A stretch of DNA of 40,813 bases from Geobacter sp. (lineage in GTDB: Bacteria; Desulfobacterota; Desulfuromonadia; Geobacterales; Pseudopelobacteraceae): assembly GCA_009886055.1 (NCBI GenBank), contig VFJM01000042.1, positions 1 through 40,813 on the forward strand, read 5' to 3'. How positions within the stretch are numbered: the stretch's first letter is position 1; every line of letters begins with the position of its first letter. Both the position numbers and the translations under genes were made by a program. Shown here piece by piece: positions 35,120-39,195 of this stretch. The notes beneath the pieces are model-generated. The model saw only the letters and a program-made list of their open reading frames with translations, did not search any database and had not been told where the DNA came from.

Positions 35120-37033
35120 TCAGGCGGCACAATCCGTGACCGTACGGCAAAAAACAGCAAGTTTATCCAGTTGACCCTGGCGCTTATCCGGGTCTTCCTC
35201 AAGATGAACCCTGTCGATGAGAAAACCGATCCTTTCGAAATAGCCAATTCCTTCACGCAGCATCTGTCGACAGGAGTCATCCCCGTCAGCAGCACGTTCG
35301 GGAAGACAGACCAGCACCTCCCCGCTGGGATTCATCAGCCAGGCCACGTACACCTGAGACTGACCGCCTCCAGTTACCAGACAGACGAAACCATCGCATT
35401 TCTGGGGCTGCTTTCCGGTCGGAGCCGCTTGGATCGTGTTGTAGGACTGATAAATCTCGACTACATCGGTTGGAAAGGAATAAGGGATGCCTTTTAGCAA
35501 TTTATCCGGCAAGAAATCAAGATATTCAGAAGCTTCATCTGATCTGAATTGATCGGAAGCAAAGCTTGCCTGTTGACTGACGAAAGAGATCTCTTTCCGG
35601 TCATCCGTTGAAAGAAAGGAGGCATTACTACCTGGCTGTACCGGCGGCAACCCGGTTGGCGATGCGATAACCGCGCGCGCCAGGGCCAGCTGGCGGATAT
35701 CTTCCTTTAAAGCATTCAACTTTTCTAACGCCGCCTTGCGCTGCGACTGGTTAACCTGCTGCTGCCGCTCGATTTCTTCATGAGCTTTTATTTTAATTTC
35801 CGCCGCACTTTTTTCCAATAGGTGCTTCTCGGCGGTCAGGGAATCAACCTTTTTCTTCAATAATTTGAGTTCGGCTGAGGCATTACGCTCAAGGGCATCC
35901 ATTTCTTGCAATGCAGATCCATTTTTTGCCTTCTCGGCAGACAAAGACACGTTTGCAGCAGCCAGGGCAGCCCGCAAGACCTCAATTTCACCAGTATGTT
36001 CGGAATCGTTTCCGGCCAGTTCAGCCATAAGCCTGTTTATTTCTGCCTTCAGATCACCTGTTGCCGCTTGATGGACGGCTTCAACGTCATCATTAATTGC
36101 CACCCTGTCGTGCAGGGAGGACTCGAGGGCTTCCTGGAGCTCGCGGCGAATAACCTCAGTTTCTTTTCTGGCCTTATCAAGCTCCTTCTGTTCGGATTTC
36201 AACTTTTCGTTTAATAATTCGCTCTCCTGTTTAGAGAGTTTCTGCTCCTTCCTGGCCTGTCTTGCCTCATCTTTGGCGTTCTTCAGGCCTTCCCCGGAAC
36301 TCTTCAGCATTATCTTGACGTTGTTGAGTTCTTCCTGCACCTTCTGTAACTCCTGTTCTGCGCCAACAAGACGAAGGCGAAATCCTTCTCCTTCCTCACG
36401 AAGGGTACGTAAGTCCTCATGCAACGCATCCGGCTCAACCTGCAGAGCAGAACCGGCACTGTTTTCAGCATTGGCAGGCCGTTCAACCATGGAAGCCTGC
36501 TGAACGGCTGTTGCCGCGGCCAGACGTCCCCTGAGAACCTCCATCTCGGTTATAAGCTCCATTTGTTCTTGAGACGCCTTTCGGGTGATCTCCTTATTCT
36601 CGGCAGTCAGACCTTCTAAAGCCATTTTAGCGGCATCAAGTTGCACGGCAAGAGAAGGCTCCCGCATGACCCTGATATCTTTAATGATCACTTCACGGGT
36701 TGCCGAACGAAAATCGATATTGACCTGTTCCATTTCAAAGCCGATGTTTTCAAGAAATCCCTGGGCATCCAGCAAAAGCGCTGCAAGCTTTTCATTATCA
36801 GGCCTGAACGGATCGGCAATAAAAATAAAGTTGGATTTTAACTGCTGGTCATGCAATGCCACGTACACACGATGAAGGTTATATTCATTAACAACACAGA
36901 TGAATGCGTCACAGAGATGTCCCTTGCAGTAATCTGCAGAAGGGACGATGGGATGGGGTGATCGATGGAGCGAAAGAAGGTTTGACTCTTCAATCTTCAG
37001 AAAACTTCTGGTGCGATCAATAGAAAAGGTCAT
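35120..37033 (-). CDS. Coiled-coil protein with similar domains at both ends
   Basis: A 637-residue cytoplasmic protein with no signal peptide and no membrane segment. Residues about 120-465 are rich in Glu, Lys, Ala and Leu and read as a long coiled coil. The globular ends resemble each other: CDAFICVVNEYNLHRVYVAL (41-60) against CDGFVCLV...QVYVAW (546-565), and FLENIGFEMEQV (93-104) against YFERIGFLIDRV (598-609). The family is unknown to me. A GGGGAGG lies before the ATG. A long leader with a riboswitch and a terminator indicates control by a second messenger. Possible roles are scaffold or signalling filament. Confidence 0.85.
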   Translation of the reverse strand: MTFSIDRTRSFLKIEESNLLSLHRSPHPIVPSADYCKGHLCDAFICVVNEYNLHRVYVALHDQQLKSNFIFIADPFRPDNEKLAALLLDAQGFLENIGFEMEQVNIDFRSATREVIIKDIRVMREPSLAVQLDAAKMALEGLTAENKEITRKASQEQMELITEMEVLRGRLAAATAVQQASMVERPANAENSAGSALQVEPDALHEDLRTLREEGEGFRLRLVGAEQELQKVQEELNNVKIMLKSSGEGLKNAKDEARQARKEQKLSKQESELLNEKLKSEQKELDKARKETEVIRRELQEALESSLHDRVAINDDVEAVHQAATGDLKAEINRLMAELAGNDSEHTGEIEVLRAALAAANVSLSAEKAKNGSALQEMDALERNASAELKLLKKKVDSLTAEKHLLEKSAAEIKIKAHEEIERQQQVNQSQRKAALEKLNALKEDIRQLALARAVIASPTGLPPVQPGSNASFLSTDDRKEISFVSQQASFASDQFRSDEASEYLDFLPDKLLKGIPYSFPTDVVEIYQSYNTIQAAPTGKQPQKCDGFVCLVTGGGQSQVYVAWLMNPSGEVLVCLPERAADGDDSCRQMLREGIGYFERIGFLIDRVHLEEDPDKRQGQLDKLAVFCRTVTDCAA

Positions 37034-37092
37034 CGAAATTCCTCCCCGTCTTTCCGGAAAGGACCGGATTGACGGAGACCTTTCGGCACCCG

Positions 37093-37130
37093 AAAAAACG
37101 GGTGACGAAATCTGATATTTCGGGAACCCG
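37093..37130 (-). terminator. Riboswitch-linked intrinsic terminator
   Basis: Read on the minus strand: CGGGT (37130-37126), TCC, CGAAAT (37122-37117), loop ATCAG, ATTTCG (37111-37106), TC, ACCCG (37103-37099), then six T (37098-37093). The 5' arm and loop reuse bases that build the 3' side of the aptamer, so terminator and ligand-bound aptamer exclude each other. A further hairpin, CACCCG-TTTTTT-CGGGTG (37104-37087), could act as competitor. Confidence 0.8.
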
Positions 37131-37199
37131 GCTGTCTCAGAGAGACCCTAAGTTATCCGCCCCGTCATCGCTGACGGTTTAGTCTTATCGTTTATCAGA
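37111..37199 (-). promoter_or_regulatory. GEMM-I-type cyclic dinucleotide riboswitch (GEMM-Ib-like)
   Basis: The 89-base aptamer is closed by a 7-bp stem, TCTGATA (37199-37193) with TATCAGA (37117-37111). CCGTCA-GCGA-TGACGG (37177-37162) is the 6-bp GNRA stem of GEMM-I RNAs, in the AAACC...GG context, with the same 16-base length as in the Vibrio Vc2 aptamer. The 3' part AGCCGGGTT (37133-37125) matches the conserved ligand-binding strand. Aligned to Vc2, position 20 is A (37183) rather than G, the mark of cyclic AMP-GMP sensors. The 21-46 pair is C-G instead of G-C, a compensatory change. A47 (37156) and C92 (37131) are kept. Confidence 0.82.
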
Positions 37200-37227
37200 A
37201 GGTCAAAAGATATGTAGTCATCACCAA

Positions 37228-37254
37228 ATTATAGAATATGTATTAAAAATTCAA
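37228..37254 (-). promoter_or_regulatory. Promoter of the riboswitch-controlled gene
   Basis: Minus strand: a consensus -10 TATAAT (37233-37228), with TTGAAT 15 bases upstream or the overlapping CTTGAA 16 bases upstream as -35. Transcription would start near 37221, giving a leader of about 190 bases that includes the whole aptamer. Confidence 0.6.
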
Positions 37255-37325: not shown

Positions 37326-38671
37326 TCACCCATACACCACATACCCTCGCTGCGGCGCCTCGACCTCGCACCATCCGTCAGCATCCGCAACAACCGAAAC
37401 CGGATTGTAAACAATCTCCTTCCCCCTCCAGGCCAGCGGCTTCAGCGCCTTCCCCGGAAAGGCGGTTTTTACCCGCTGCCTGATCACTCCCCCCGAATTG
37501 TTCAGGGCAAAGACCAACCCCGGCAGATCCCCGAAGCCGCTTCGCTCCATGGCGTAGAACAGGTCATCCGCATACAGGATGTTCGTCCCCCCGCCTGCGT
37601 GGCTCTCGTGAACCTGCACGAGCCGTTCGATCCCGCCCGGCTCCCCCGGCTCACCCAGACCGTAGCGGAAATAATCCTTCCAGTAGACGCACGGATACCC
37701 TTCGTGAGTCAGGATGAAGGCGTAGGCAAGCATCTTGTCGTTGATGATTTCGGGGGGGGAGTCGCCGCCGCGGAAGTCGTGGTTGTCGACGAAGGTGACC
37801 GCCTCGAAGGGACGGTCCTTCATCAGGACGCCGCCGTCAGCTAATGTTCTCAGGCTGAATCCGGGCGTGTCGCAAAGATCTTTCAGCCGGTACCGCAACG
37901 GGAAGTCGAACGCCCCGACCCGGTTATCGGCCCACTTGTTCACCGAGTCGAGCCAGCTGTCGATGAAGTCGTCACCGGCCCAGCATTCCCCGACACCGAA
38001 TAGATCGACCTTAACCTTATCCCGCGTGTACTGCCGGTCGTGGATCGCCCTGACGATCCAGGCGCCGAACCCCTTGACGAAGTCATACCTGAAGCCGTCG
38101 AAGCCGATCTCCTGAATCATCCACTTGGCATGGTTCAGGATGCCGGTTGAGACGCGGGGATTGATGTGGCAGAGGTCCGGCATGCTGCCGAAAGCGACGT
38201 CGTCCAGTTCCCTGTAGGGTGAGGGGTTGAAACAGGTCCAGTCGCGGGTGAAGATGTTGCTTAAGGGGGAAAATTTCGTCCACCGTTTCAGCTGCAGGAT
38301 CGGGTTGAACTCCTCCTCATCGGCGCCGTTGTTGTGATTCAGAACCAGGTCGCCGTACACCTTCATCCGCCGGTCGTGAACCGCTTTGGTCAGCGCTTTC
38401 AGTTCTTCCTTCGAGCCGTACCAGAGGTCCGCTTTTCACCGGGTGTGACACTCTTTTGCGCGAAATCGCCGAGGTCGTAATAGTCGTAGACATCGTACCC
38501 CATCGACATGCCACCGATGTTCGACCCCTTGCTGGCGGGGGGCAGCCAGAGTGCGGTAAAACCGGCGTTCCGGATTTCGTCCAGCTTTGTAGAGACAAAG
38601 TTCCACCAGGCGAACTCCTGCTGATCCTCCCGTGGACAATCCCAATAAAATGACTGCATCAGAACACCCAT
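37326..38671 (-). pseudogene. Alpha-amylase (GH13), frameshifted
   Basis: A cytoplasmic-type alpha-amylase of about 448 residues if one frameshift is repaired. The first part, from ATG 38671 (after GGGAGGG), runs MGVLMQSFYWDCP to GEK. The rest continues in another frame as ADLWYGSKEELKAL and on to 37326. Adding one A at the TTTT run (plus strand 38433-38436) joins them perfectly. Catalytic residues are intact: Asp in GFDGFRYDFVKG, Glu in GVGECWAGD, Asp in FVDNHDFRGG. A single-base loss in a short run with an otherwise intact gene suggests a recent mutation or a sequencing error. Function if active: hydrolysis of internal alpha-1,4-glucans such as glycogen. Confidence 0.85.
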
Positions 38672-39195
38672 AGCTTTTTCCCTCCCTGAAATTTCCGGCT
38701 TTCCGGAACACCAGGGGGGACGATGTTGATTAGTTGTCCAACCCGGCACCTAATCTACAAATAAGCAACGTCCCCTCAAGTCCCTCAAACAAGTGTCGGC
38801 CCCCAGTGTGCACCCTCATGATTTCAGCTGATGACGTAATAAAGTGTCAATTGCTTCATCAACTCCCCTTCCCTGCCATTCAGCCAGCCACCTGTTTACT
38901 TTACCACACAAACGACAAAAGGCCGCACAATCAGCCTGTCAGTTGACCACAGCGACCCAGCAACAAGGGAATGGCCCCTGTGCAGATATCATCACCCTCC
39001 CCCCTTAATCCACAACATTGAATTTTATCTATTTAACTGCGTTTTATTTTTTTGCAAATAAACTTTTAGTCTGTTTTTATAATAATACCGTCATGCTGAA
39101 CGCAGGCGGACAGTGATGATAAAAAAGGCTATTCCCAGAATATCCACCTTACTAACAACTCGTATTAAATCGGATGATAACACTCTACATTTCCC
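38672..39195. other. Long intergenic region before bamA promoter
   Basis: About 520 bases between divergent genes. The part near 39005-39095 is very AT-rich with T-runs. I see no convincing gene, RNA or repeat; a 70-codon frame at 38734-38946 has no RBS and no recognisable protein features. Confidence 0.6.

Follow-up and report, generated by a model that had tools for sequence, protein, structure and literature searches.

The stretch of DNA analysed here (the window) comprises 40,813 nucleotides of contig VFJM01000042.1 from Geobacter sp. (GCA_009886055.1). A reading made from the letters alone (the sequence-only reading) had proposed that the window carries a GEMM-I riboswitch of the cyclic AMP-GMP (cGAMP) type ahead of a gene for a coiled-coil protein. 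This raises the question of whether the element is a genuine riboswitch and, if so, which ligand it senses, in which direction it switches and what it controls. An Rfam scan returned one riboswitch match in the whole window, a full-length match to RF01051 (c-di-GMP-I) with an E-value of 6e-5. Its score of 41.6 bits is above the curated covariance-model cut-off of 35 bits that defines GEMM-I membership, and is among the lowest of the host genome's GEMM-I matches. The three-way junction formed by P1, a GNRA-capped P2 and P3 is present, and the closing stem of 7 bp and the GNRA stem are both as the sequence-only reading had drawn them. The coordinates of all features are collected in Table 1.

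Table 1. Features of the riboswitch and its target gene, numbered from the first nucleotide of the window
Feature	Position	Strand	Basis or remark
Target gene, 637 codons; two homologous end domains, coiled-coil-like middle	35120..37033	-	
C-terminal domain, residues 496-630	35144..35548	-	Profile; model pLDDT 88
N-terminal domain, residues 1-127	36653..37033	-	Profile match to C-terminal domain; model pLDDT 78.6
U6 tract	37093..37098	-	Directly after terminator hairpin
Terminator hairpin, exclusive with aptamer P1 and P3	37099..37130	-	
P1 3' strand, UAUCAGA; doubles as terminator loop	37111..37117	-	
GEMM-I (c-di-GMP-I) aptamer with A20	37119..37193	-	RF01051, 41.6 bits; covariation in P2 and P1
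P2 with GCGA (GNRA) loop	37162..37177	-	CCGUCA-GCGA-UGACGG
A20, contacts the variable purine of the ligand	37183..37183	-	Rfam alignment and alignment of relatives
P1 5' strand, UCUGAUA	37193..37199	-	
-10-like TATAAT	37228..37233	-	Read from sequence, upstream of aptamer
-35-like TTGAAT, weak; spacer of 15 to TATAAT	37249-37254	-	Read from sequence

Position 20 of the aptamer is an adenine, the base that marks the GEMM-Ib (cGAMP) subclass. The Rfam alignment places C21 at 37182, G46 at 37157 and A47 at 37156, with a C-G pair at 21-46 and a U-G pair at 22-45. The numbering relative to Vc2 given by the sequence-only reading agrees with this alignment and with our alignment of 36 A20 aptamers, in which A20, the 21-46 and 22-45 pairs and A47 are invariant. 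The named base pairs are present in 88% of the cells of the aptamer alignment, with changes on both sides in 10 of the 26 pairs, and covariation is seen in P2 and P1; in a control where the partners were slid, the pairing signal was lost. Every base that is invariant among the 36 relatives is retained in the window. These results confirm that the minus strand of the window carries a genuine GEMM-I aptamer.

The sequence-only reading had named conservation ahead of homologues of the 637-residue protein encoded downstream as a check. An A20 aptamer lies directly upstream of the homologue in about 28 of the 43 loci for which the upstream region was read, in three families of one order: f1 (the genus of the window and genera g11 and g12), f4 (genera g4 and g7) and f3 (Geomonas and other genera). 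About 15 homologues have no upstream GEMM-I element. All of the copies read upstream of homologues have A20 and none has G20. A pattern-based search gave 21 named matches, none of them from a published model species of Geobacter. The aptamer in the window shares 80-92% identity with the aptamers of the nearest homologues, but no more than 76% with any other A20 switch in the host genome; switch and gene have therefore been passed on together. We estimate that chance would pair an aptamer with fewer than 1% of genes, given approximately 20 GEMM-I copies and more than 3,000 genes. The A20 switch and the coiled-coil gene are a conserved unit.

We consider it highly likely that this element belongs to the GEMM-Ib riboswitches, senses 3',3'-cGAMP and acts as a transcriptional ON switch for the gene at 35120-37033. 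In Gmet_0970, selectivity for cGAMP is set by A20, and changing A20 to G switches the preference to c-di-GMP (PMC6456294). The C21-G46 pair of the window corresponds to C15-G40 of the Geobacter cGAMP riboswitch, which is the pair at the base of P2 (PMC6274999). The sequence-only reading had taken A20 together with a swapped 21-46 pair as the cGAMP signature; the swap is present, but it is not diagnostic and we rejected it as a marker of cGAMP, since C-G also occupies this position in two G20 aptamers of the host genome (L004 and L007). These two GEMM-I aptamers, which combine G20 with the C21-G46 pair typical of A20 copies, are possibly intermediates between the c-di-GMP and cGAMP types. In the structure 4YAZ, the pocket is formed by G8, A11, A12, U13, A14, C15, A41, A42, G74, C75 and C76 (PMC7288161). 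The window aptamer retains all of these except for U13, A42 and G74, which are replaced by G, U (U48 in the window) and C, respectively. The first two changes also occur in the aptamers of the homologues and the third is found in the window copy only.

A supply of cGAMP may be encoded in the host genome, which has 14 GGDEF matches. Most have the canonical Asp, and two (L107 and L108) have the Hypr-type serine in GHxVGS and are, by this signature residue, candidate cGAMP synthases. L108, with REC and GGDEF domains, is closest to GacA of G. metallireducens, scoring 215.6 bits to GmGacA (6D9M) versus 157.1 bits to PleD. The best solved match of L107, which joins a GAF-like domain to GGDEF, was also 6D9M. 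The genome contains 21 GEMM-I matches, 20 of which are above the cut-off and 13 of which have A20. The other A20 switches precede genes for an L,D-transpeptidase lipoprotein, DUF4382 lipoproteins, fn3 proteins and an ice-binding-like protein. At two loci (L005 and L013) A20 riboswitches occur in tandem, two copies each with their own terminators, ahead of the genes for the L,D-transpeptidase lipoprotein and an fn3 lipoprotein. A published cGAMP-regulated operon of G. sulfurreducens includes an L,D-transpeptidase (PMC6456294), in agreement with the host lipoprotein behind tandem A20 switches.

The strongest competitor is that the same ON switch responds in the cell to c-di-GMP, or to both dinucleotides, such that the gene tracks the level of c-di-GMP. 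Riboswitches for cGAMP can bind c-di-GMP (PMC9262584), the omcST switch responds to both (PMC6456294), and most of the GGDEF matches in the host have the canonical Asp. Set against this are the uniform A20 of the copies upstream of homologues, the Hypr-type synthases and the effect of the A20 to G change in Gmet_0970, and we regard this alternative as unlikely.

Sensing of cGAMP would be converted to gene expression by a terminator. As the sequence-only reading had noted, a hairpin followed by six U residues borrows bases from the closing stem: the 5' arm consists of the 3' strand of P3 together with the junction, and the P1 3' strand supplies the AUCAG loop. Because the terminator takes the 3' strand of the aptamer, the two structures cannot coexist, and by sequence and predicted folding this arrangement is that of a transcriptional ON switch. 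Transcription would start at about 37221. In the absence of ligand, the downstream strand AUUUCGUCACCCG would capture the aptamer's 3' strand CGGGUUCCCGAAAU, forming a hairpin that, with the U6 tract behind it, would stop RNA polymerase. When ligand is present, P1 and P3 would keep the 3' strand, no terminator would form, and the single gene at 35120-37033 would be transcribed. For pilM of G. metallireducens this ON logic has been established (PMC9262584), and it is on this model, along with the anatomy of the terminator, that we file the switch as ON. For the RNA as far as the U tract, folding predicts -29.6 kcal/mol for the aptamer and -28.7 kcal/mol for the terminator; the two are so nearly equal that ligand could decide between them.

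Taken alone, the terminator of the window is weak, at about -11 kcal/mol with a z-score of about -2, and 3% of shuffled sequences were equally good. In relatives (upstream of target-gene homologues and at the other A20 switches of the host) the same geometry recurs with z-scores mostly of about -3 to -7, which makes the window terminator convincing. In nearly all copies upstream of homologues the 5' arm is drawn from the aptamer. No recognisable terminator hairpin was found in the closest relative, L095. This relative, which is 70% identical, has TTGAAT-N15-TATAAG at the same place as the promoter-like element of the window, and TTGACG or TTGACA elements occur at a similar place upstream in L053 and L055. 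A stricter promoter scan did not report the TATAAT box because the spacer is 15. Folding predicts two further hairpins on the minus strand. One, at 37081-37110 (UUUCGUCACCCG-UUUUUU-CGGGUGCCGAAA, -15.9 kcal/mol), encloses the U tract within its loop and sequesters the 3' arm of the terminator; it could lock the ON fold after the polymerase has passed. The other, at 37043-37078 directly 5' of the ATG, overlaps part of the ribosome-binding site GGGGAGGA and may possibly be a second layer of control.

The weakness of the terminator also raises the alternative that the window aptamer is in decay and has lost the ability to switch, leaving expression of the gene constitutive or dead. The low Rfam score, the altered junction bases (U48 and the C at the position of G74) and the unrecognisable terminator of L095 are in keeping with decay, whereas the open reading frame is both conserved and intact, no base that is invariant in the 36 relatives has been lost, and the competing folds are balanced. 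We judge decay to be still less probable than a response to c-di-GMP. A chance match without riboswitch function, for which only the terminator's weakness taken alone could be cited, is refuted by conservation, the same gene being preceded by the aptamer in about 28 genomes, and has the Rfam score and covariation against it as well.

We thus class the element as GEMM-I by the covariance-model test, as probably GEMM-Ib by A20 and context, and as a putative ON switch by anatomy. The proposal of the sequence-only reading, a GEMM-Ib ON switch that brings a further gene into the putative cGAMP regulon, is supported by the covariance-model match, conservation, the upstream promoter-like element, the exclusive folds and the Hypr-type synthases. 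Weighing against the cGAMP-sensing ON switch are U48, the C at the G74 position, the low score, the weak terminator and the homologues that have no GEMM-I element.

The target gene begins 85 nt downstream of the aptamer. Its product lacks any long hydrophobic segment, and the middle part has a hydrophobic period of 3.55 residues (p 0.001). Profile comparison showed homology between the N-terminal and C-terminal domains (probability 99.85, E 1.5e-30), and the C-terminal domain was modelled with confidence (pLDDT 88) as a β-sheet with a long helix. By its sequence the product is a soluble coiled-coil protein that carries homologous small domains at both ends. Homologues of the 637-aa protein occur in five or more genera, and with a profile the C-terminal domain was detected in 61 of the 141 genomes from the order and in roughly half of a class sample. 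Elsewhere in the class, in other families, it makes up lone-domain proteins of about 170-240 residues; three examples (L144, L146 and L147) are standalone proteins of approximately 170-190 aa. In the examples fetched, lone-domain genes lie near genes that, judged by their sequences, are purine or methylthioadenosine phosphorylase-like.

Pfam and NCBIfam gave no useful match to the full-length protein, Pfam gave one weak match to a single member among the C-terminal domains, a PDB sequence search with the target returned designed helical proteins only, and no relative was found in viral contigs. The protein belongs to no Pfam family, and has homologues order-wide and single-domain relatives class-wide. 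We gave the fold no name: the best Foldseek E-value was 0.057, and the best VIA Z-score, 5.5 to PARP2 WGR domains, is in the range that the tool flags as possibly a common arrangement. Elsewhere in the window, at 37326-38749 on the minus strand, an alpha-amylase-like gene is apparently interrupted by a frameshift at about 38.4 kb (open reading frames of 346 and 116 aa) and appears to be a pseudogene or an assembly error.

Signalling by cGAMP in Geobacter relatives is known chiefly for outer-surface targets such as cytochromes, pili and lipoproteins. Most likely, the target has a structural or scaffolding role in the cGAMP programme. More speculatively, and with considerable doubt, we suggest that the double-ended coiled-coil family is a conserved cGAMP output in the order, absent from those parts of the published regulon text that were available, and that it may form a cytoplasmic scaffold or filament required on the switch to growth with extracellular acceptors. 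A soluble, unannotated family that keeps its own A20 switch across three families offers a genetic handle on further functions controlled by cGAMP, and Geomonas species, which bear the switch-gene unit, are natural test organisms.

The mechanism proposed here is already known, and what is new is the conserved, uncharacterised target. Vc2 of Vibrio cholerae, a GEMM-I riboswitch for c-di-GMP, has the same overall fold and class as the window aptamer. Vc2 has G20, G21-C46 and C22-G45, whereas the window has A20, C21-G46 and U22-G45. The closer likeness is to the GEMM-Ib riboswitches of Geobacter (pilM of G. metallireducens, GSU1761/pgcA and the structure 4YAZ), with which the window shares A20, the C-G pair at the base of P2, the A in J2/3, the ligand-pairing C, a terminator built from the 3' strand of the aptamer and, as predicted for the window, the ON logic. 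It differs from them in having U48 instead of A, a C where they have G74 and a weaker terminator, and in its target, which is an uncharacterised coiled-coil protein where theirs are pili or cytochromes.
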